Positions 21,601-60,402 of a DNA stretch of 64,000 nucleotides are shown here, piece after piece. Source of the stretch: Hylemonella gracilis ATCC 19624 (GTDB taxonomy: Bacteria > Pseudomonadota > Gammaproteobacteria > Burkholderiales > Burkholderiaceae_C). Made by a program: the position numbers and the translations under genes. The notes beneath the pieces are model-generated. The model saw only the letters and a list, made by a program, of their open reading frames with translations, did no database searches and had not been told where the DNA came from. Every line of letters starts with the position of its first letter. The stretch's first letter is position 1. The DNA lies in assembly GCF_000211835.1 (NCBI RefSeq), contig NZ_AEGR01000018.1, positions 1 to 64,000 on the forward strand. Reading direction: 5' to 3'.

Positions 21601-21640
21601 ATTTTTATTATATATTTATAATTATCAAAACATAATCATA
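21601..21640. promoter_or_regulatory. AT-rich divergent promoter/operator region
   Basis: Only three of these 40 bases are G or C, a strong contrast with the GC-rich surroundings. It includes the inverted repeat ATTAT-N6-ATAAT (21621-21636). It lies between the divergent DUF2798 and MarR genes and ends 14 bases before the MarR ATG. MarR proteins bind AT-rich palindromes at their own promoters, so this is the likely autoregulatory operator. Confidence 0.5.
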
Positions 21641-35299: not shown

Positions 35300-35313
35300 T
35301 TGATCAAGATCAA
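35300..35313. promoter_or_regulatory. FNR-type box upstream of pmdA
   Basis: TTGAT-CAAG-ATCAA matches the FNR consensus TTGAT-N4-ATCAA exactly. It sits two bases from the pmdA Shine-Dalgarno, a position suited to repression, and its centre is about 64 bases before the LysR start. No -10-like hexamer lies at the distance seen for the cco and hemN boxes. Repression of an oxygen-requiring enzyme under anoxia is a plausible role but is inferred. Confidence 0.45.
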
Positions 35314-49868: not shown

Positions 49869-49882
49869 TTGATTTGCATCAA
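49869..49882 (+). promoter_or_regulatory. FNR box upstream of ccoI
   Basis: TTGAT-TTGC-ATCAA fits the FNR consensus exactly. A -10-like TACGCT at 49905-49910 is centred 32 bases downstream of the box, as expected for a class II FNR-activated promoter with transcription starting near 49917. Confidence 0.7.
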
Positions 49883-49918
49883 ATCACTTTCATGCCGCGC
49901 CCCTTACGCTTGCCGTCC

Positions 49919-52438
49919 ATGACGTCAGCCTTTGCCGCCGAAGCTTCGCCTGCCGCGGCCTGTCCCCTGGATGCGTTCAACGCTTCCCACGCCTCGGCCG
50001 CTGCCGATGCCCCGCGCATCCCCGCTTCCCTTGAAAGTGCCGAGGGCGCCAACGCCCGCACCTTGGTGGACGACCCGCAGTTCTGGCCTGCCTTCGGGCG
50101 TGTCGTGTCCGGTGTCGTGTCCGATCAGTCGGGGAGCCCGGCGTCGCCGCACGGAGCAACCGCGCCTTTGTGGGAGTCTCGGCTCGCGATCGAGGGCATG
50201 TACTGCGCGGCCTGCGCGCTCAATGTGGAAGACGCCTTGCGCCGCTTGCCCGGCGTGGAGTCGGTGAGCGTCAGCGTGGGCAGCCAACGCGCGCAACTGC
50301 GGTGGCGCGAGGGCCTGGCCCGCCCGTCCCAGTGGCTGGAGGCGGTGCAGGACGCGGGCTACCGGGCCGTGCCCGCGCAGGATCTGTTCGCCAGCGAGCG
50401 CAGACGCCATGAATCGCGCGGCGCCTTGTGGCGCTGGCTGGTCGCGGGCTTTTGCATGATGCAAGTCATGATGTACGCGTGGCCCGCCTACGTGGCGGGA
50501 CCGGGCGACGCCGCGGGAGGGCTCACCGGCGAGCAGGAGCAGCTGCTGCGCTGGGCCAGTTGGGTGCTCACCCTGCCGGTCATGCTGTTTTGCTGCGGCC
50601 CCTTTTTCTCCGCCGCCTGGCATGACTTGACCAGCGGCTTGCGCCAGGGCCGTCTCAGCGCGCGCATCGGCATGGACGTGCCCGTGGCCCTGGGCATGGC
50701 CATCACCTTCGTGGTCAGCACCCTGGGCACGTTCGAGCCTCAGGGCGTTTTCGGGCGGGAGGTTTATTTCGACTCGCTCACCATGTTCGTCTGTTTCCTG
50801 CTCACCGGGCGCTGGCTGGAGCTGCGCTTGCGCAACCGCACGGCCGGCGCCTTGGACGCGCTCATGAACCGCCTGCCCGAAAGCGTGTTGCGCCAGACGC
50901 CCGATGCGCTGCCCCCTGGCGGGCAGGCTCGCTACGAGCGCGTGGCCTTGCACCGCGTTCGAGTGGGCGATGTGCTGCGCGTGTTGCCGGGCGAGGCATT
51001 TCCCGCCGACGGCGTGTTGCTGGAGGGGCTGCCACGCAATGGCACGCAGGTGGACGAGGCCTTGCTGACGGGCGAGTCCCGCCCGCTCAAGCGTGGCGCG
51101 GGAGACGCCATCATCGCGGGCAGCCACAACCTCGCGGCGCCCGTGCTGATGCGGGTCGAGCGCCTGGGCCAGGACACCCGCTACGCGCAGATCGTGGCCC
51201 TGATGGAACAGGCCGAGGCCAGCCGACCGCGCATGGCCCAGCTGGTGGACCGTCTGGCGCGGCCCTTCCTGCTGATCGTGCTGCTCGCGGCCGCCGGGGC
51301 CGCCGCCTACTGGTGGCAGGCCGACGCGACGACGGGGCAGGGCGGCCCGGGGCATGCGCTGATGGTGGCCGTGGCCGTGCTCATCGTCACCTGCCCCTGC
51401 GCTCTCACCCTGGCCACGCCGGCCGCCTTGTTGGCGGCCGCGGGCAGGCTCGCGCGCCAGGGCGTGCTGGTGCGTCGCCTGTCCGCGCTGGAGGCATTGG
51501 CCAGTGTCGATACCGTCGTGTTCGACAAGACAGGCACCCTGACCAGCGATGCCCTGACCCTGCAGGCCGTGCGGACCCGAGAGGGCCTGACGCGCGGCCA
51601 GGCCTTGGCCTGGAGCGCGGCGCTGGCGCGCCAGTCCCTGCACCCGCTGTCGCGCGCTCTGGTGAAGGCCGCGGCCACGGTGGCCGGGGAGCCCTTGCAG
51701 GCCCAGAACGTGCAGGAGCTCAGCGGGCAAGGCCTCACGGCCACCGTGGACGGGCGGCCGCTGCGCCTGGGTTCACCCGCGCATTGCGGCGTGCCGGCCC
51801 AGGCCGTGTTCGGACCGCACGCCATGCTGGCGGACGAGCAGGGCTGGCTGGCCACTTTCGAATTCGGCGAGCAAATCCGCCCGGACGCGCGCACCACGAT
51901 CAACACGCTGCGCGCGCGGGGGCTGGAGGTGAGGGTGCTCTCCGGCGATGCGCCCGCGCCGGTGGCGCGGGTGGCGCACGAATTGGGCTTGGACCCCGCG
52001 CAGGCCCGGGGCGCCTGCGCACCGGACGACAAACTCGAGGTCTTGCGGCAGCTGCAGGCCCAGGGCCGCAAGGTCGCCGTGGTGGGGGATGGCCTGAACG
52101 ATGGCCCCGCGCTGGCGGGCGCGCAGGTGTCCTTCGCCTTCGGCCCTTCCGTGCCGCTGACCCGGGCCCGCGCTGACTTCGTCGTGCTCGGTGAACATTT
52201 GAGCAGCGTGGCCGAGGCCCAAGCCACCGCGCGGCGCACCTTGCGCGTCGTGCGGCAAAACATCGTCTGGGCCGTGGCCTACAACGCGGCCTGCATTCCC
52301 CTGGCCATCGCCGGACTGTTGCCGGCCTGGGCGGCGGGGTTGGGCATGGCGGCCAGTTCCCTGCTGGTGGTGCTCAACGCGCTGCGCCTCACGCGCCCGG
52401 CCCTGATCCCGCCTGCTCCCGCCTTGGAGGGCGTGTGA
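49919..52438 (+). CDS. ccoI: Cu(+)-exporting P-type ATPase of the cbb3 oxidase cluster
   Basis: An 839-residue P1B-type ATPase that pumps copper toward the periplasm for cbb3 oxidase assembly. The N-terminal metal-binding motif is C96-A-A-C99 (IEGMYCAACAL). The membrane CPC motif (TCPCALTLATPAAL), phosphorylation loop D536-K-T-G-T, TGES, HP (LHPLSRAL) and GDGLNDGP are all visible. Start choice is uncertain: 49892 is also in frame but lies upstream of the predicted FNR-dependent transcription start; neither has a Shine-Dalgarno. The gene overlaps ccoS by one base pair unit (TGATG). Confidence 0.9.
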   Translation: MTSAFAAEASPAAACPLDAFNASHASAAADAPRIPASLESAEGANARTLVDDPQFWPAFGRVVSGVVSDQSGSPASPHGATAPLWESRLAIEGMYCAACALNVEDALRRLPGVESVSVSVGSQRAQLRWREGLARPSQWLEAVQDAGYRAVPAQDLFASERRRHESRGALWRWLVAGFCMMQVMMYAWPAYVAGPGDAAGGLTGEQEQLLRWASWVLTLPVMLFCCGPFFSAAWHDLTSGLRQGRLSARIGMDVPVALGMAITFVVSTLGTFEPQGVFGREVYFDSLTMFVCFLLTGRWLELRLRNRTAGALDALMNRLPESVLRQTPDALPPGGQARYERVALHRVRVGDVLRVLPGEAFPADGVLLEGLPRNGTQVDEALLTGESRPLKRGAGDAIIAGSHNLAAPVLMRVERLGQDTRYAQIVALMEQAEASRPRMAQLVDRLARPFLLIVLLAAAGAAAYWWQADATTGQGGPGHALMVAVAVLIVTCPCALTLATPAALLAAAGRLARQGVLVRRLSALEALASVDTVVFDKTGTLTSDALTLQAVRTREGLTRGQALAWSAALARQSLHPLSRALVKAAATVAGEPLQAQNVQELSGQGLTATVDGRPLRLGSPAHCGVPAQAVFGPHAMLADEQGWLATFEFGEQIRPDARTTINTLRARGLEVRVLSGDAPAPVARVAHELGLDPAQARGACAPDDKLEVLRQLQAQGRKVAVVGDGLNDGPALAGAQVSFAFGPSVPLTRARADFVVLGEHLSSVAEAQATARRTLRVVRQNIVWAVAYNAACIPLAIAGLLPAWAAGLGMAASSLLVVLNALRLTRPALIPPAPALEGV

Positions 52439-52575
52439 TGGACATTCTTTATCTGTTGATTCCCCTGTCGGTCGCCTTGGTCTTTTTCATCCTGGGCGGC
52501 CTGTGGTGGGCGATCCAGCGCGGGCAGTTCGAGGATCTGGAAGCCGAGGGCGAGCGCATCTTGCGCGATGACTGA
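52438..52575 (+). CDS. ccoS: cbb3-type cytochrome oxidase assembly protein CcoS
   Basis: A 45-residue membrane protein starting MDILYLLIPLSVALVFF. One hydrophobic segment (about 4-25) is followed by the conserved WWAIQRGQFEDLEAEGERIL. CcoS is needed for heme and copper insertion into cbb3 oxidase. Its ATG overlaps the ccoI stop (TGATG), as in other cco clusters. Confidence 0.92.
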   Translation: MDILYLLIPLSVALVFFILGGLWWAIQRGQFEDLEAEGERILRDD

Positions 52576-52590
52576 CTGAATGCAGCCTGT

Positions 52591-52604
52591 TTGACATGCG
52601 TCAA
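52591..52604 (+). promoter_or_regulatory. FNR box upstream of ccoN
   Basis: TTGAC-ATGC-GTCAA differs from the FNR consensus by one base in each arm. A -10-like CAGACT sits at 52627-52632, the same distance from the box as in front of ccoI. The predicted transcript would begin just before the ccoN Shine-Dalgarno (GAGGTG at 52641-52646). Confidence 0.6.
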
Positions 52605-52650
52605 ACCGGCTGTTCGAGCAAGCAGGCAGACTGTGAAAAAGAGGTGAAAC

Positions 52651-54090
52651 ATGACAATACTCAAACAGGACGCCACGGTCTACAACGACACCGTGGTTCG
52701 GCAGTTCGCCATCATGACGGTGGTGTGGGGCGTGGTGGGCATGCTGGTGGGCGTCATCATCGCCGCCCAGCTGGCCTGGCCGGAACTGAACTTCGGCATA
52801 CCGTGGCTGAGCTACGGGCGCTTGCGTCCCTTGCACACCAATGCGGTGATCTTCGCCTTCGGCGGTTGCGGCTTGTTCGCCTCGGCCTACTACGTGGTGC
52901 AGCGCACCAGCCAGGTCCGCCTGTTCGCGGGGCCGCTGGCGTCCTTCACCTTCTGGGGCTGGCAGCTGGTCATCGTGCTGGCGGCGATCACCTTGCCCCT
53001 GGGCTACACCAGCGGCAAGGAATACGCTGAACTTGAGTGGCCCATCGACATCCTGATCGCCCTGGTCTGGGTGGCCTTCGCGGTGGTGTTCTTCGGCACG
53101 GTCGGCACGCGCAAGGTGCGGCACATCTACGTGGCCAACTGGTTCTTCGGCGCCTTCATCATCGCCGTGGCCCTGCTGCACATCGTCAACAGCGCGGCGA
53201 TCCCCGCGGGCCTGCTCAAGAGCTACTCGGCTTACGCCGGCGTGCAGGACGCCATGATCCAGTGGTGGTATGGCCACAACGCGGTGGGCTTCTTCCTGAC
53301 GGCCGGCTTCCTGGGCATGATGTACTACTTCATTCCCAAGCAGGCTGAGCGGCCGGTCTACAGCTACCGCCTCTCCATCGTCCACTTCTGGGCGCTGATC
53401 TTCACCTACATGTGGGCGGGTCCGCACCACCTGCACTACACGGCCTTGCCGGACTGGACGCAGTCGGTCGGCATGCTGTTCTCGCTGATCCTGTTGGCGC
53501 CGTCCTGGGGCGGCATGATCAACGGCATCATGACCCTCAGCGGTGCCTGGCACAAGCTGCGCGATGACCCCATCCTGCGCTTCCTGATCGTCAGCCTGTC
53601 GTTCTACGGCATGAGCACCTTCGAAGGTCCGATGATGTCCATCAAGACCGTCAATGCCCTGAGCCACTACACGGACTGGACCATCGGCCACGTGCACAGC
53701 GGCGCCCTGGGCTGGGTGGGCCTGGTGACCATGGGCAGCATGTACTACCTGATTCCGCGCCTCTTTGGCCAGAAGCAGATGTTCAGCGTCAAGGCCATCG
53801 AAGTCCATTTCTGGGTCTCCACGATCGGCATCGTGATCTACATCGCGGCCATGTGGATCGCGGGCGTGATGCAGGGCCTGATGTGGCGCTCGGTCGACGC
53901 CGATGGCACGCTGACCTACACCTTCGTCGAGTCGGTCAAGGCCACCTATCCCTTCTACGTGCTGCGCCTGTTCGGTGGTCTGCTGTACCTGGCGGGCATG
54001 GTGCTGATGCTCTGGAACGTGGTCAAGACGGCCCTGGCCGGACGCGTGGAGCCGGTGCGCATTCCGAACGTTGCCGCGGCCCACGCCTGA
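52651..54090 (+). CDS. ccoN: cbb3-type cytochrome c oxidase subunit I
   Basis: A 479-residue heme-copper oxidase core with about twelve membrane segments. It reduces oxygen at the heme b3-CuB site with high affinity. Heme and copper ligands lie in [55 protein letters not shown] and [16 protein letters not shown]. Length fits CcoN of betaproteobacteria. It is first in ccoNOQP. Confidence 0.97.
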
Positions 54091-54102
54091 GGAGAAAAGA
54101 AC

Positions 54103-54720
54103 ATGGCGCAACAGAAACCCACGGGTCACGAGAAGATCGAGACCAACAACTTCCTGATGATCGTGCTGATCCTGCTGGTGCTGCTGGTCGGCGGCCTGGT
54201 GGAAATCGTGCCGCTCTTCTTCCAGAAGTCCACCACCCAACCGCTGGAAGGCGTCAAGCCCTACACCGCGCTGCAGCTCGCCGGGCGCGATGTCTACATC
54301 CGCGAGGGTTGCTACAACTGCCACTCGCAGATGATTCGCCCCTTCCGCGCCGAGACGCTGCGCTACGGCCACTACTCGGTGGCGGGTGAGTCGGTTTACG
54401 ACCACCCCTTCCAGTGGGGCAGCAAGCGCACCGGCCCTGACCTTGCGCGCGTCGGTGGACGCTACAGCGACGAGTGGCACCGCATCCACCTGAACAACCC
54501 GCGCGACATGGTGCCGGAGTCGAACATGCCGGCCTATCCCTGGCTGGGTAAGAACTTGGTGGATGCCGAGTCCTTGCCGACGCACATGAAGGCGCTGCGC
54601 GTGGTGGGCGTGCCCTACACGGACGAACAGATTGCCCAGGCGCCTGCGGACGTCAAGGGCAAGACCGAGCTGGACGCGCTGATCGCTTTCCTGCAGGTGC
54701 TGGGCACCGCGCTGAAATAA
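54103..54720 (+). CDS. ccoO: cbb3-type cytochrome c oxidase subunit II (mono-heme c)
   Basis: A 205-residue membrane-anchored cytochrome c. A single hydrophobic anchor (about 17-40) precedes the heme site C70-Y-N-C73-H74 ([15 protein letters not shown]). [33 protein letters not shown] (in segments) is conserved and holds the axial Met. It passes electrons from CcoP to CcoN. Confidence 0.96.
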
Positions 54721-54731
54721 GGAGTACGGAC

Positions 54732-54866
54732 ATGGACATCAACACCCTGCGTTCCGTGGTCACCGTCGCGGGCCTGCTCTGCTTCATCGGCATCGTGGCC
54801 TGGGCCTGGTCCGCGCGCAAGCAACCGGACTTCGAGCAAGCCGCGCGCCTGCCCTTCGAAGAATGA
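54732..54866 (+). CDS. ccoQ: cbb3-type cytochrome oxidase subunit CcoQ
   Basis: A 44-residue protein starting MDINTLRSVVTVAG with one membrane segment (about 8-27) and the usual C-terminal acidic tail (QAARLPFEE). CcoQ stabilises the cbb3 complex. It lies 11 bases after ccoO behind a GGAG and ends 29 bases before ccoP. Confidence 0.9.
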   Translation: MDINTLRSVVTVAGLLCFIGIVAWAWSARKQPDFEQAARLPFEE

Positions 54867-54895
54867 AGACAAGACACTGAAGACGAGAACACATC

Positions 54896-55819
54896 ATGAG
54901 CGACTTCACGCACAACTTCTGGTCGATCTTCATTGGCGCCGTCACCCTCATCAGCATCATCGCCTGCCTGGTGTTGCTGTGGGTTTCCGGCAAGGTCAAG
55001 GTCAAGAACGCGACCGCCGACAACAGCACCGGGCATGTCTGGGACGAAGACTTGCGCGAGATGAACAACCCACTGCCGCGCTGGTGGGTGGGTCTCTTCA
55101 TCCTGACCATTGTTTTTGCCCTGGTCTACCTCTTCTTGTATCCGGGCCTGGGCAAGCACGCCGGCTCCCTGGGCTGGACGCAAAAGGGTGAATACGAGGC
55201 GGAGATGGCCAAGGGCGCGCAGCAGGTGGCGCCGCTGTACGCCAAGTTCTCCGGCATGAGCGTGCCCGATGCCGCCAAGGAGCCGCAGGCGATCACCGTG
55301 GGCGAAAAGCTCTTCTTGAACAACTGCGCCCAATGCCATGGCAGCGACGCGCGGGGCAGCAAGGGGTTCCCCAACCTGACGGACAGCGACTGGCTCTGGG
55401 GCGGCACGCCTGACGCCATCAAGACCACCATCACCCAGGGCCGCACGGGCGCGATGCCTCCCATGGCCGCGGCCCTCGGTGGCGCGGACGATGTGAAGAA
55501 CGTGGCGCAGTACGTGCTCAGCCTCTCCGGCAGCCCGCACGACAGTCTGCGCGCTCAACTGGGCAAGGCCAAGTTCGGTGTCTGCGCGGCTTGCCACGGG
55601 CAGGACGGCAAAGGCAACCCGCTGCTGGGCGCGCCCAATCTGACCGACGATGTCTGGCTGCATGGCTGGGGTGAGAACGCCATCATGGCCATGATCAACA
55701 ATGGCAAGACCAACCAGATGCCCGCGCAAGGCGCGGGACACGGCGGCAAGCTCACGGCCGAGCAGATTCACTTGCTGACGGCCTACGTCTGGAGTCGTGG
55801 CGGTGGCCAAGGCCAGTAG
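54896..55819 (+). CDS. ccoP: cbb3-type cytochrome c oxidase subunit III (di-heme c)
   Basis: A 307-residue membrane-anchored di-heme cytochrome c. Two hydrophobic segments (about 8-30 and 64-82) precede two heme domains: C144-A-Q-C147-H148 and C230-A-A-C233-H234. Axial Met candidates are in TGAMPPMAAAL and TNQMPAQG. WDEDLREMNNPLPRWW is the usual linker motif of CcoP. The end overlaps ccoG. Confidence 0.96.
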   Translation: MSDFTHNFWSIFIGAVTLISIIACLVLLWVSGKVKVKNATADNSTGHVWDEDLREMNNPLPRWWVGLFILTIVFALVYLFLYPGLGKHAGSLGWTQKGEYEAEMAKGAQQVAPLYAKFSGMSVPDAAKEPQAITVGEKLFLNNCAQCHGSDARGSKGFPNLTDSDWLWGGTPDAIKTTITQGRTGAMPPMAAALGGADDVKNVAQYVLSLSGSPHDSLRAQLGKAKFGVCAACHGQDGKGNPLLGAPNLTDDVWLHGWGENAIMAMINNGKTNQMPAQGAGHGGKLTAEQIHLLTAYVWSRGGGQGQ

Positions 55820-57290
55820 CACGGCCGACCAGGTCGGCAAGGTCATCCCGATCGCCGCCGTTGAAGCCGATGGCGGCGAGACCGTGGTCTCGCTCTACGA
55901 GGCCAGCAAGAAGATCTATCCTCGCAGCGTCAGCGGCTACTACGCGCGCTGGCGCTGGGTGCTGGTCTGGTTCACGCAGATCATTTTTTATGGTCTGCCC
56001 TGGCTGCAATGGGGCGAGCGTCAGGCCGTGCTCTTCGATCTGGGGGCACGGCGTTTTTATCTTTTCGGGTTGGTGCTCTACCCGCAGGACTTCATCTACC
56101 TGACCGGCCTGCTCGTCATCTCGGCGCTGTCGCTCTTTCTGTTCACCGCCGTGGCTGGGCGGCAGTGGTGCGGTTATGCGTGTCCGCAAACCGTCTACAC
56201 CGAGATCTTTCTCTGGATCGAACGCAAGATCGAGGGCGATCGCAGCGCGCGTTTGCGTCTCGACGCGGGCGCCTGGAACTTGAACAAGGTGCTGCGCAAG
56301 GGCGGCAAGCACCTGGTCTGGCTGGCCTTGGCGTTGTGGACGGGGTTCACCTTCGTCGGCTACTTCACCCCCGTGCGTGAGCTCTGGGCGGAGTCCTTCA
56401 CCTTCGGCTTCGGGCCCTGGGAATGGTTCTGGGTGAATTTCTACGCGCTGGCGACCTATGGCAACGCGGGTTTCATGCGCGAGCAGGTCTGCAAGTACAT
56501 GTGCCCTTACGCCCGTTTCCAGAGCGCCATGTTCGACAAGGACACGCTGATCGTCAGCTACGACGAGAAGCGCGGCGAATCGCGTGGCGCGCGTTCACGT
56601 CAGGCCGATGCGCGGGCGCTCAAGGCGCAGGGTCTGGGGGACTGCATCGATTGCACGATGTGCGTGCAGGTCTGCCCGACCGGCATCGACATCCGCAAGG
56701 GCTTGCAGTACGAATGCATCAGCTGCGGAGCCTGCGTGGACGTGTGCGACAACGTGATGGACAAGATGGGCTACGCACGCGGCTTGATCCGCTACACCAC
56801 GCAGAATGCCCTGCAAGGCGGCTGGAGCCGTCTGCAGACCTGGAAGCGCGTGTTCCGCCCGCGCGTGCTGGTCTACACCGCCATCCTCTGGGCCATCATC
56901 TTCGGCTTGCTCGCGAGCCTGGCCCTGCGGTCCTCCTTCAAGGTGGACGTGGTGCGCGACCGTGGCGTGCTCGCGCGCATCGTTGTCGGTCCCGATGGAC
57001 GCGGTTTGATCGAGAATGTCTACCGCCTGCAGATCATGAACGCCTCCGAAAACACGCAGCGCTTCCGGATCGCTGTCACCGGCTTGCAAGGCTTGGCGGT
57101 CGTCAGCGACGGCGCGGAGGGAGGCGAGGTGACCGTGGGGCCAGCGCAAGCCCGCTGGTTGGCGGTGCGCGCGCAGCTGCCTTACGAAGAAGGCGAGCGC
57201 ATGGGCACGGGCAGCCACCCCATGCGCTTTGAGATCAGCGCGGATGGCCAGGTGGTGAGGGAGAAATCCGTCTTCCTGGTTCCCCGCTGA
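55803..57290 (+). CDS. ccoG: cbb3 oxidase accessory iron-sulfur protein CcoG
   Basis: A 495-residue membrane protein with a polyferredoxin domain, which reduces copper for delivery to the oxidase. Cluster motifs are CIDCTMCVQVCPTG and CISCGACVDVC; additional Cys motifs (WCGYACPQT, CKYMCPYARF) lie between membrane segments. A C-terminal immunoglobulin-like periplasmic domain starts near residue 390 (RIVVGPDGRGLIENVYRLQ). The GTG at 55803 has a GGAG eight bases upstream and is preferred over the GTG two codons earlier; either start overlaps ccoP. Confidence 0.94.
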   Translation: MAKASSTADQVGKVIPIAAVEADGGETVVSLYEASKKIYPRSVSGYYARWRWVLVWFTQIIFYGLPWLQWGERQAVLFDLGARRFYLFGLVLYPQDFIYLTGLLVISALSLFLFTAVAGRQWCGYACPQTVYTEIFLWIERKIEGDRSARLRLDAGAWNLNKVLRKGGKHLVWLALALWTGFTFVGYFTPVRELWAESFTFGFGPWEWFWVNFYALATYGNAGFMREQVCKYMCPYARFQSAMFDKDTLIVSYDEKRGESRGARSRQADARALKAQGLGDCIDCTMCVQVCPTGIDIRKGLQYECISCGACVDVCDNVMDKMGYARGLIRYTTQNALQGGWSRLQTWKRVFRPRVLVYTAILWAIIFGLLASLALRSSFKVDVVRDRGVLARIVVGPDGRGLIENVYRLQIMNASENTQRFRIAVTGLQGLAVVSDGAEGGEVTVGPAQARWLAVRAQLPYEEGERMGTGSHPMRFEISADGQVVREKSVFLVPR

Positions 57291-57309
57291 GCAGACGGTT
57301 CGAAAGATC

Positions 57310-57582
57310 ATGGAGCAAGACATGCGAGACGCTAAACCTTGGTGGACTTTTGGCTATGTGTGGTTCGTGCTGGCGGGGCCCATCATCGTGGTGGTCGCCA
57401 GCCTGCACACCTTCTGGTTGGCCGCGAGCACGCCGGACCCGGTGCTGGACACCAGCGTGGTGAGCCAGAGCCAGGCGCCCGCGCAGCAGGCGCGCAACCA
57501 TGCGCAGACCGGCGCGCCCGTCGCGGGGCAGATGGACCTGCCAGCCCAAGGGCAGGCCGCGCGAGCCCCGTCGGCGCCCTAG
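57310..57582 (+). CDS. ccoH: Short FixH/CcoH-like membrane protein
   Basis: A 90-residue protein with one hydrophobic segment (about 15-40, VWFVLAGPIIVVVASLHTFW) that resembles the N-terminal membrane part of FixH/CcoH, including PWW at the start. The usual periplasmic domain of about 100 residues is missing; instead there is a short Ala/Gln/Pro-rich tail. It follows ccoG by 19 bases. Assignment rests mainly on position and the membrane segment; it may be a shortened lineage-specific form. Confidence 0.6.
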   Translation: MEQDMRDAKPWWTFGYVWFVLAGPIIVVVASLHTFWLAASTPDPVLDTSVVSQSQAPAQQARNHAQTGAPVAGQMDLPAQGQAARAPSAP

Positions 57583-57647
57583 CGCCCCACGACCCAGGTT
57601 CCGAGCGTCCGATCAAGAAGAAAACAGCCGCCTAGAGGAGTACAACC

Positions 57648-57872
57648 ATGAAGTGGCGCAAACTCATGTGGATCGCGTGGCCGGCATTTTTGGTCGCCGG
57701 ACTGATCGAAATGGTGGTCTTCGCCTTCGTGGATCCGCACGACCTGTATTGGTTTGGCCAGCCGCTGGAGCTGGCACGCGCCGGCGTCTACACGCTGGCC
57801 TTCTTCGTGTTCTGGGCCATGGCGGGCTTGGCCAGCGCGTTGACTCTGCTGCTGGCCAGCGAGCAAGACTGA
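57648..57872 (+). CDS. Small two-TM membrane protein downstream of ccoGH
   Basis: A 74-residue protein with two hydrophobic segments (about 8-30 and 45-69, linked by DPHDLYWFGQPLELARAG). I do not recognise a named family. It has a Shine-Dalgarno (GAGG) and lies 65 bases after the FixH-like gene on the same strand, suggesting it belongs to the cbb3 assembly operon. The 169-base gap behind it to the end of fnr shows no further gene or clear terminator. Confidence 0.6.
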   Translation: MKWRKLMWIAWPAFLVAGLIEMVVFAFVDPHDLYWFGQPLELARAGVYTLAFFVFWAMAGLASALTLLLASEQD

Positions 57873-58041
57873 ACGGTGTGCTCAGACGCCATGGTCAGCG
57901 GGCCAATTGGTTTGGCTTGGACTGGCCTGGCACTGGCAACATGCGCTCTCACCCAGGCACAGAGCCAGGGTGCCTTCGTGGGTTGGAGGTCTGGCGCAGG
58001 CTTGGAGCCAGCGTGGGAGCCGGGAACCCCTGGGCCCGCCT

Positions 58042-58800
58042 TCAATGGCAGGCGGGTTGGACGGCGTTGACGAGGCGGGTCAGTGCGTCGGTGTCGAGGA
58101 TGCGCACGTAGCGCTGCTTGACCTCGACGATGCCGTCTTCCGCGAAGCGCGAGAAAGTACGGCTCACGGTCTCGAGCTTGAGACCCAGGTAGCTGCCGAT
58201 TTCCTCGCGGGTCATGCGCAGGATCAGCTCGGATTGGGAGAAGCCGCGCGCGTGCAGGCGCTGCACCAGGTTCAGCAGGAAGGCGGCCAGCCGTTCCTCG
58301 GCCCGCATGCTGCCCAGCAGCAGCATCACACCCTGGTCGCGCACGATTTCGCGGCTCATGATGCGGTGCACGTGGCGCTGCAGGCCGTTGATCTCACGCG
58401 AAAGGTCTTCGATGCGGTCGTAGGGCATGACGCAGACTTCCGCGTCTTCCAGCGCGACGGCGTCGCAGCTGTGCAGGTCGTTGACGATGCCGTCCAGCCC
58501 GATGATCTCGCCCGCCATTTGGAAACCGGTGACCTGATCACGTCCATCCTCGGTGGTGACGCAGGTCTTGAAGAAGCCGGTGCGGATGGCGTAAAGCGAT
58601 TCGAATTTCTCGCCCGCGTGGAACAGCGCTTCGCCGCGCTTGACCTTGCGCCGCGTGGCGACCACGTCGTCCAGGCGCTCCATCTCCTCGCCGCTCAGGC
58701 CCACGGGCATGCAGAGCTCGCGCAGGTTGCAGTTGGAGCAGGCAACCTTGATCGTGTGCAGATCCATCGAGCGCACGTTGATGGCGGGGCGGTTCGACAT
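58042..58800 (-). CDS. fnr: FNR-type anaerobic regulator (CRP/FNR family)
   Basis: A 252-residue oxygen-sensing regulator. The [4Fe-4S] ligands are C21, C24 and C30 (ACSNCNLRELCM) plus C112 (NDLHSCDAV), matching the FNR spacing. A cyclic-nucleotide-like sensor domain (about 35-150) is followed by a dimer helix and a helix-turn-helix with MTREEIGSYLGLKLETVSRTFSRFAEDG, where E-x3-S-R makes contact with the TTGAT half-site. It is divergent from hemN with an FNR box between them, so it may be autoregulated. The Met at 58800 is chosen; a later Met at residue 12 is less likely. Confidence 0.95.
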   Translation of the reverse strand: MSNRPAINVRSMDLHTIKVACSNCNLRELCMPVGLSGEEMERLDDVVATRRKVKRGEALFHAGEKFESLYAIRTGFFKTCVTTEDGRDQVTGFQMAGEIIGLDGIVNDLHSCDAVALEDAEVCVMPYDRIEDLSREINGLQRHVHRIMSREIVRDQGVMLLLGSMRAEERLAAFLLNLVQRLHARGFSQSELILRMTREEIGSYLGLKLETVSRTFSRFAEDGIVEVKQRYVRILDTDALTRLVNAVQPACH

Positions 58801-58884
58801 GGCGGCTATTGTGACATGGTTGCGCGCGCTGACGGAAGCCCATCGGCCGTGGCTCAAGGGCGAGGGCGGCGATTCCGTCACCTT

Positions 58885-58898
58885 TTGATGCAAATCAA
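58885..58898. promoter_or_regulatory. FNR box between fnr and hemN
   Basis: TTGAT-GCAA-ATCAA is a perfect FNR consensus. It lies 56 bases before the hemN ATG and 85 bases before fnr. A -10-like CACAGT at 58921-58926 sits at the same distance as in the ccoI and ccoN promoters, predicting hemN transcription from about 58933. Confidence 0.7.
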
Positions 58899-58953
58899 CA
58901 TGGGCTCAGCGCCCTCGGTGCACAGTCGGGTACCAACCCGCCGGCATAAGTCC

Positions 58954-60402
58954 ATGCGCAAAGAAACTGACTCCGCCCTTGCCCCCGACGCGCCGTTCGC
59001 GCTCACGCCCGAGCTGCTGCGTCGCCACGACGTGAGCGGTCCGCGCTACACCTCCTACCCGACGGCGGACCGTTTCGTCGAGGCTTTCGGGCCGACGGAC
59101 TACGCCCAGGCCCTGGGGCAGCGGGGCGGAGCGGGGGCCGGTGCCTTGCCGCTGTCGCTCTACGTGCACGTGCCGTTCTGCGAGTCGCTGTGCTACTACT
59201 GCGCCTGCAACAAGATCATCACCAAGCACCATGAGCGTGCGACGGAATACCTGCGCTACCTGGCCCGGGAGGTGGACTTGCATCTGGAGGCCTTGGGGGC
59301 GACGGCCGCGTCGGGCCACGCCCCCGCGATCAGCCAGTTGCATCTTGGCGGCGGCACGCCGACCTTCCTGAATGACGAAGAATTGCGCTCGCTCATGCGC
59401 ATGCTGCAGCGTGCCTTTCACTTCACGCCCGGCGGCGAATACTCCATCGAGGTCGATCCGCGCACCATCGATCCCGCGCGTCTGGACGTTCTGGCCGAAC
59501 TGGGCTTCAACCGCCTGAGCTTTGGCGTGCAAGATTTCGACCCCGCCGTGCAGAAGGCCGTGCACCGTGTTCAGCCCGCGCGCCAGGTCTTTGATTTGGT
59601 GGCGGCGGCGCGCGAACGCGGCTTTGAATCCATCAACATCGATCTCATCTACGGCCTGCCGCTGCAGACGCCGGAGTCCTTCGCGCGCACCCTGGACCAG
59701 GTGGGCGAATTGCGGCCGGACCGCATCGCGCTCTACGCCTACGCCCATTTGCCCGAGCGTTTCAAGCCGCAGCGGCGCATCGATGGCGCCCAATTGCCCG
59801 GCGCTGCGGCCAAGCTTGCCATGCTGTCGGACGCCTTGGCGCGCCTGCAAGGCTTGGGCTATGTCTACGTCGGCATGGATCACTTTGCCTTGCCGGGCGA
59901 CGCCCTCGCAGTTGCGCAGCGCCAGGGCCGCCTGCACCGCAACTTCCAGGGTTACAGCACGCAGCCCGATTGCGACCTGATCGGGTTGGGCGTGTCCGCC
60001 ATCGGGCGCATCGGCGCGACTTACAGCCAGAACGCCAAGACGCTGGAGGAGTATTACGACGCGCTGGACCGCGGCAGCTTCCCCGTGCAGCGGGGCTTGG
60101 CGCTCTCGCGCGATGACCTGGTACGGCGTTCCGTGATCATGGCCTTGATGTGCCAGGGTGAGCTGATGTTCGAGTCCATCAACCTGGCCTGGCTGATCGA
60201 CTTCAAAACGTACTTCGCCGCCGAGTTGGCCATCCTGCGCGGCCTGGCCGAACAAGGGCTGGTCACGCTGGACCTCGACGAACGGCGCGGCGGCATTCAG
60301 GTCACGCCCTTGGGCTGGTACTTCGTGCGCGCCATCGCCATGGTGTTTGACCGCTACCTGCAAGCCGACCGCAACCGCGCGCGTTTCTCGAAGATCCTTT
60401 GA
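58954..60402 (+). CDS. hemN: Oxygen-independent coproporphyrinogen III oxidase
   Basis: A 482-residue radical-SAM enzyme that converts coproporphyrinogen III to protoporphyrinogen IX without oxygen. The [4Fe-4S]/SAM motif is C76-x3-C80-x2-C83 (PFCESLCYYCACNK), preceded by GPRYTSYPTADRF. GGGTPTFL and the C-terminal HemN domain (YSQNAKTLEEYYDALDRG, GWYFVRAIAMVFDRYL) are present. It supplies heme under low oxygen, in line with the neighbouring fnr and cco genes. The ATG at 58954 is chosen; in-frame upstream sequence is the fnr promoter. Confidence 0.96.
   Translation: MRKETDSALAPDAPFALTPELLRRHDVSGPRYTSYPTADRFVEAFGPTDYAQALGQRGGAGAGALPLSLYVHVPFCESLCYYCACNKIITKHHERATEYLRYLAREVDLHLEALGATAASGHAPAISQLHLGGGTPTFLNDEELRSLMRMLQRAFHFTPGGEYSIEVDPRTIDPARLDVLAELGFNRLSFGVQDFDPAVQKAVHRVQPARQVFDLVAAARERGFESINIDLIYGLPLQTPESFARTLDQVGELRPDRIALYAYAHLPERFKPQRRIDGAQLPGAAAKLAMLSDALARLQGLGYVYVGMDHFALPGDALAVAQRQGRLHRNFQGYSTQPDCDLIGLGVSAIGRIGATYSQNAKTLEEYYDALDRGSFPVQRGLALSRDDLVRRSVIMALMCQGELMFESINLAWLIDFKTYFAAELAILRGLAEQGLVTLDLDERRGGIQVTPLGWYFVRAIAMVFDRYLQADRNRARFSKIL

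Follow-up and report, generated by a model that had tools for sequence, protein, structure and literature searches.

The stretch of 64,000 nucleotides from Hylemonella gracilis ATCC 19624 analysed here (contig NZ_AEGR01000018.1, positions 1 to 64,000; hereafter the window) carries a cbb3 oxidase locus that comprises mltB, ccoI, ccoS, ccoNOQP, ccoG, a ccoH-like open reading frame (ORF), an ORF for a 74-aa membrane protein, fnr on the opposite strand, hemN and a DsbD-like gene (Table 1). FNR boxes were found before ccoI, ccoN and hemN, each accompanied by a weak -10-like hexamer at one fixed distance. We consider it quite probable that all three represent sigma70 promoters of class II that depend on FNR, and that the ccoI message is leaderless. 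The gene order of the window is the rule among 48 loci (first set) taken from 60 genomes of the same family, 51 of which gave a CcoN match; some of these loci are truncated, or their extracted stretch does not include fnr or hemN. A second set of 80 named loci brought the total, with the window, to 129. The two sets may overlap in species, and only identical promoters were removed.

Table 1. Genes and promoter elements of the cbb3 oxidase locus in the window.
Feature	Position	Strand	Remark
FNR box of ccoI, TTGATTTGCATCAA	49869..49882	+	perfect match to TTGATNNNNATCAA
-10 hexamer TACGCT, ccoI promoter	49905..49910	+	same letters in same-genus locus L040
Predicted transcription start 49917 and ccoI ATG 49919-49921	49917..49921	+	leader 0-2 nt, predicted from class II geometry
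ccoI, copper-transporting P-type ATPase, 839 aa	49919..52438	+	
ccoS, 45-aa membrane protein	52438..52575	+	name from position and relatives, without family hit
FNR box of ccoN, TTGACATGCGTCAA	52591..52604	+	two mismatches to TTGATNNNNATCAA
-10 hexamer CAGACT, ccoN promoter	52627..52632	+	
Shine-Dalgarno GAGGT of ccoN	52641..52645	+	message predicted to be leadered
ccoN, cbb3 oxidase subunit I	52651..54090	+	TIGR00780
ccoO, ccoQ, ccoP	54103-54720, 54732-54866, 54896-55819	+	block 54103..55819
ccoG	55797-57290	+	first gene of block 55797..57872
ccoH-like ORF	57310-57582	+	without family hit, assigned by synteny
Conserved 74-aa membrane ORF	57648-57872	+	without family hit, assigned by synteny
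fnr, oxygen-sensing regulator	58042..58800	-	PRK11161 subfamily
FNR box of hemN, TTGATGCAAATCAA	58885..58898	+	perfect match to TTGATNNNNATCAA
-10 hexamer CACAGT, hemN promoter	58921..58926	+	
hemN, oxygen-independent coproporphyrinogen III oxidase	58954..60402	+	TIGR00538

A preliminary description of this DNA had placed a -10-like hexamer 29.5 bases from the centre of each of the three boxes (beginning at 49869, 52591 and 58885), and both its coordinates and its hexamers proved to be exact. Each hexamer agrees with TATAAT at just three of six positions, and all three have kept the A and the T at positions 2 and 6, respectively. On the plus strand no other hexamer with three or more TATAAT matches is present between 20 and 33 bases from the box centre at any of the three sites. 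The pattern NANNNT, in which only these A and T are fixed, has a frequency of about 0.027 in the window, so that its occurrence in three of three cases at one stated offset would have a chance of about 2e-5, a figure to be read in the light of the fact that the criterion was picked after the hexamers had been seen. The two positions correspond to A(-11) and T(-7), reported as the most important ones for sigma70 in passages of a study of the cld promoter (PMC7349173), and they are retained in all three window hexamers. Moreover, the boxes are more than chance matches, since the 3.6-Mb genome contains 9 TTGATNNNNATCAA sites as compared with 0 for the reversed pattern, and 30 TTGAYNNNNRTCAA sites as compared with 1.

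The strongest check on the geometry is its conservation in relatives. With a box threshold of score 8 or more, the 129 loci provided 86 ccoI, 126 ccoN and 78 hemN promoters for analysis. Left out for ccoI were 13 loci in which the gene is missing, does not adjoin ccoN or lies on the opposite strand, 18 without a box, 1 duplicate and 11 that are cut off; for ccoN, 2 boxless loci and 1 duplicate; and for hemN, 47 in which the gene is missing or on the opposite strand, 3 boxless and 1 duplicate. NANNNT stands at 29.5 bases in 66/86 ccoI, 108/126 ccoN and 55/78 hemN promoters, as compared with averages of 2.6, 5.7 and 4.5 promoters, respectively, at offsets outside 28.5-30.5; the next best offsets are 28.5 for ccoI (16), 31.5 for ccoN (25) and 19.5 for hemN (13). 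Both sets show the same (first set, window included: 24/30 ccoI, 42/46 ccoN, 25/36 hemN; second set: 41/53, 66/79 and 31/42). Indeed, when the first set was aligned on the box, the information peaks coincided with box and hexamer, and the intervening stretch remained near background. The letters of the hexamer depend on the gene: TAGATT, TAGGCT, TAGCCT and similar forms before ccoI, GACACT (29/121) and its relatives before ccoN, and most commonly CACAGT (33/68) before hemN. On these grounds the assignment of the three sites as class II FNR promoters appears well supported.

The preliminary description had also predicted transcription starts at 49917 (ccoI), 52639 (ccoN) and 58933 (hemN), and it missed a consequence of the first of them. 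The ATG of ccoI, at 49919, follows position 49917 by 2 nt, so that the ccoI message would be leaderless. Taking as start the first in-frame ATG or GTG at least 3 nt after the hexamer, we found 64 of 82 ccoI promoters in which this codon follows the hexamer by 5-9 nt, namely by 6 nt in 41, by 7 in 15, by 8 in 7 and by 9 in 1; the peak at 6 nt places the A of the ATG at the predicted +1. A Shine-Dalgarno match (4 or more) accompanies only 1 of these 64. In 40/65 loci the start codon lies exactly 41.5 bases from the box centre, the codon is ATG in 58/65, and an in-frame stop within the hexamer closes the upstream frame in 28/82. The idea of a leaderless message arose in the first set, where 23/32 ccoI genes have their start at 5-9 nt; in the second set the proportion is 41/50, with a Shine-Dalgarno match in 0/41. 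As a control, ATG or GTG makes up 32 of 1006 in-frame codons 12-72 nt downstream in the second set, from which one would predict a chance frequency of about 5% for the 5-9 nt slot. Mapped on a CcoN tree (FastTree), the two states of ccoI (65 vs 17 loci) require at least 5 changes. The ccoI mRNA is thus probably leaderless, as far as start-codon placement can tell.

The other two genes of the group differ from ccoI in this respect. The ccoN start follows the hexamer by 5-9 nt in only 2/121 promoters, and 82 of the 116 more distant starts have a Shine-Dalgarno match. For hemN the close start is found in 21/68, with a Shine-Dalgarno match in 30 of the 47 more distant ones; the hemN message of the window, with 27 nt between hexamer and ATG and no Shine-Dalgarno match, is predicted to be leadered. 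Close hemN starts were observed in L041, L043, L047, L057-L059, L068, L069, L072, L075, L076 and L079, and likewise in L081, L119, L122, L123, L126, L146, L148, L156 and L159. On the CcoN tree the fewest changes for hemN are 6 (21 vs 47 loci), and hemN seems to have switched several times between leaderless and leadered forms.

Several observations weigh against a leaderless ccoI message or against its wider validity. In the window itself the ATG lies 8 nt, not 6, from the hexamer, which would give a 2-nt leader. Boxes with a score of 8 or more are missing before ccoI in 18/129 loci; the start lies more than 9 nt from the hexamer in 17/82 promoters and at 3 nt in one. None of those 17 has a Shine-Dalgarno match, and the missing Shine-Dalgarno sequence alone thus separates no classes of ccoI. 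The loci are kin, and the counts do not represent independent events. The 30 TTGAYNNNNRTCAA sites of this genome have 60 sides, 7 of which show NANNNT at 29.5 (other offsets: mean 2.03, maximum 6 at 31.5); 3 of these 7 are the ccoI, ccoN and hemN sites, which leaves 4/57 for the other sides and makes the signal weak away from the cco cluster. Across the order, the pattern with an ATG at 6-8 nt was found in 88/300 genomes as compared with 61/300 for the shifted control at 9-11 nt, some matches of which also contain an ATG at 6-8 nt, and in 13 of 30 order-wide loci examined the ORF after the matched ATG is shorter than 100 aa. A genome-wide or order-wide rule of leaderless FNR promoters was rejected on this modest excess, many of the matched ATGs being no gene start.

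The remaining unfavourable observations concern the ccoI start codon itself and would fit an account in which the promoters are of class II and translation of ccoI begins at an in-frame codon further downstream, so that the ATG at 49919 would be spurious and the message would carry an ordinary leader. Between the ATG and the conserved N-terminal motif lie 14 to 123 residues, depending on the locus, and the G+C content of this stretch by codon position (0.706, 0.584, 0.708) has little third-position excess and by itself leaves its coding status unproven. Another in-frame ATG or GTG precedes the motif in 41/61 leaderless-like ccoI genes, and 9 of the alternative starts, all loci together, have a Shine-Dalgarno match. 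However, these 9 are the only such matches, the other 20/61 genes have no second ATG or GTG before the motif, and among the starts listed for the window there is no alternative between 49919 and the motif region, ATG+8 being the sole later one. Moreover, if translation began downstream, there would be no need for the start codon to peak 6 nt after the hexamer (41/82). We regard a downstream start as rather improbable.

Nor does the regulator appear to be another one. The Fnr encoded beside hemN aligns with solved FNR structures over 229 residues (E 3e-61), scores 255.5 against the PRK11161 subfamily model (cut-off 228), and has kept the cluster cysteines C21, C24, C30 and C123 as well as a recognition helix, ETVSR, that fits ETxSR. 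TTGAT-type half sites are common to the CRP/FNR family, and a CRP/FNR-like ORF, judged from its translation, lies alongside a further box of this genome (L175, see below), so that the boxes might be used by a Dnr- or CRP-type protein instead of the adjacent Fnr. Yet fnr adjoins hemN, with the two genes mapped or almost mapped, in 37 of the 48 first-set loci, and all the cluster ligands and the recognition helix are kept; another regulator is in our opinion still less probable than a downstream ccoI start. Least credible of all is the view that the hexamers are chance matches and that the boxes act on start sites elsewhere: the agreement with TATAAT is indeed just 3/6 per hexamer, but column conservation falls exactly at 29.5 in both locus sets.

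The class II FNR activation proposed in the preliminary description is thus strongly supported by the conserved geometry of box and hexamer, the adjacent Fnr with its cysteines and ETxSR helix, and the gene content. The same description had combined the three promoters with fnr itself into a self-contained oxygen-response module, and in this it went too far. The box at 58885 has no NANNNT at 29.5 +-1 on the fnr side, the fnr ATG lies 91.5 bases downstream of its centre, and the fnr upstream regions of 87 loci have no common arrangement, for which reasons fnr was rejected as a fourth target. Moreover, 27 further TTGAYNNNNRTCAA sites, mostly not promoter-like, exist elsewhere in the genome. The three promoters may fairly be read as a local group, whereas the data do not support a closed module. 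In the window fnr looks leaderless in its own right (58798-58813, minus strand: CACAAT, then 7 nt, then ATG), in an exact form otherwise present only in L088 among the listed loci; CATAAT stands 6-8 nt upstream of an fnr ATG in L068, L069, L071, L075 and L126.

Four boxes of this genome other than those of the locus have NANNNT at 29.5 (L001, L170, L175 and L002). L001 and L170 have no convincing gene directly downstream. In L175 (C35) the box TTGACCGTGGTCAA with TATCAT at 29.5 stands before an oxalyl-CoA decarboxylase-like gene and opposite the CRP/FNR-like ORF (names judged from translations). Elsewhere in the window, a perfect FNR-type palindrome, TTGATCAAGATCAA, lies at 35300-35313, flanked by a LysR gene (+) and one for a LigB-type dioxygenase (-), with NANNNT at 29.5 absent on both sides. 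A short A+T-rich stretch containing TTTATAATTATCAA was observed at 21603-21640, in surroundings of about 70% G+C and directly before a small MarR-type-like ORF (type judged from sequence).

The order-wide loci led to a second Burkholderiales family. Eleven of the 30 encode CcoI-like proteins (BLAST), and 4 of these (L187-L190, where the short form was first seen) have just 321-326 aa. The short form was matched strongly (E 7e-89 or better) in 32 of 51 genomes of the second family, and 30 of the loci (L230-L259) were fetched. The short CcoI gene lies no more than 1 kb before ccoN in 30/30; a box is present in 28/30 and the hexamer too in 27, and the start codon follows the hexamer by 6-8 nt in 23/27, the remaining four being at 10, 10, 11 and 205. 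Compared with 20 full-length CcoI proteins, the short ones are without residues 1-142, 327-435 and 521-765 (numbering of the window protein) and have kept their membrane segments; HMA, actuator and phosphorylation/nucleotide domains are absent. CPC is kept and DKTG and HMA motifs are absent in 30/30; DKTG and GDGxND occur in 0/30 short as compared with 20/20 full-length proteins, and TGE in 3/30 short ones. The ORFs are intact (about 320 residues), and we conclude from their sequences that the short CcoI is a membrane remnant without ATPase or metal-binding domains. The four genomes in which it was first seen also carry full-length copper-type ATPases elsewhere. Its presence beside ccoN questions copper pumping as the universal function of the ccoI position. 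In literature searches, including passages of PMC13038864, nothing was found on this form.

These observations suggest the following sequence of events. At low oxygen, Fnr would carry its iron-sulfur cluster and dimerise on a box centred at -41.5, from where it would assist RNA polymerase in opening the weak -10 element, in which A(-11) and T(-7) are kept. From ccoN and most hemN relatives ordinary leadered messages would arise, and at ccoI, where transcription would begin at the start codon or some 2 nt from it at most, a leaderless copper-pump message, whose translation must then do without a Shine-Dalgarno sequence. Boxes, hexamers, their fixed spacing, the position of the start codon, the lack of a Shine-Dalgarno match and the conservation can be read directly from the sequences; from them we infer that FNR binds and activates, where transcription starts and that translation is leaderless. 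The physiological purpose might be, for example, a low or stress-proof supply of an assembly factor relative to the oxidase. In its widest form, which we regard as evenly balanced between true and false, the proposal is that in at least two Burkholderiales families the ccoI start codon may be tied to its class II FNR promoter in one fixed unit (start at +1, 41.5 from the box centre), giving at low oxygen a leaderless copper-factor message and a leadered oxidase message and persisting where CcoI keeps only membrane helices and CPC. Oxygen control of oxidase and copper factor would then diverge in translation, through the choice of ribosome.

That cbb3 oxidase genes are under class II FNR control is as expected, and the promoter type is already known; what appears to be new is the conserved placement of the start codon at the predicted ccoI transcription start. 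If this is true, an oxygen-controlled promoter with the start codon at +1, maintained in many genera, would represent a natural case of regulated leaderless translation in Gram-negatives, and the annotation of the ccoI start codon and leader would need correction. Literature searches, with subscription papers mostly outside their scope, returned no title on leaderless FNR-controlled cco genes, and 'Fnr' does not occur in the main text of PMC5343134.

Leaderless messages have been mapped in other beta-proteobacteria, Burkholderia cenocepacia and Cupriavidus metallidurans, and the passages concerned describe an arrangement like that predicted for ccoI, with a start codon at most 10 nt from the mapped start and a TA-rich -10 element directly upstream (PMC4603805, PMC7563307). 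Unlike ccoI, the genes emphasised in those passages are transcription regulators; FNR, cbb3 and hemN are absent from both main texts, FixI from the first and ccoI from the second. In E. coli, according to passages of PMC3688515, 19 of 23 FNR-activated promoters with a known start have their site at -41.5 +-4, and the class II promoters narG, dmsA, nirB and narK resemble the putative ones of the window in having a single box at -41.5 and the -10 element at -12 to -7. Here, in contrast, the -10 elements are weaker and promoter-specific (TAnnCT/TAGATT, GACACT, CACAGT), and the ccoI start codon coincides with the predicted transcription start. A closer counterpart is the cld promoter of Ideonella dechloratans, where, in the passages of PMC7349173, an FNR box is followed at the same distance by a -10 element (GAAGAT at -12 to -7) with only A(-11) and T(-7) kept, and where box mutation and fnr add-back, tested in E. 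coli, revealed FNR-dependent expression in the reporter strain. Unlike ccoI, cld is leadered, the box centre lying 105.5 bp upstream of its start codon, and it is not a cco gene. The ccoNOQP-ccoGHIS genes of Rhodobacter capsulatus cover the same set of functions, CcoI supplying the oxidase with copper (PMC8475189); in the locus described here, unlike that of R. capsulatus, the pair ccoI-ccoS, with its own putative promoter, precedes ccoN, and downstream come fnr and hemN.

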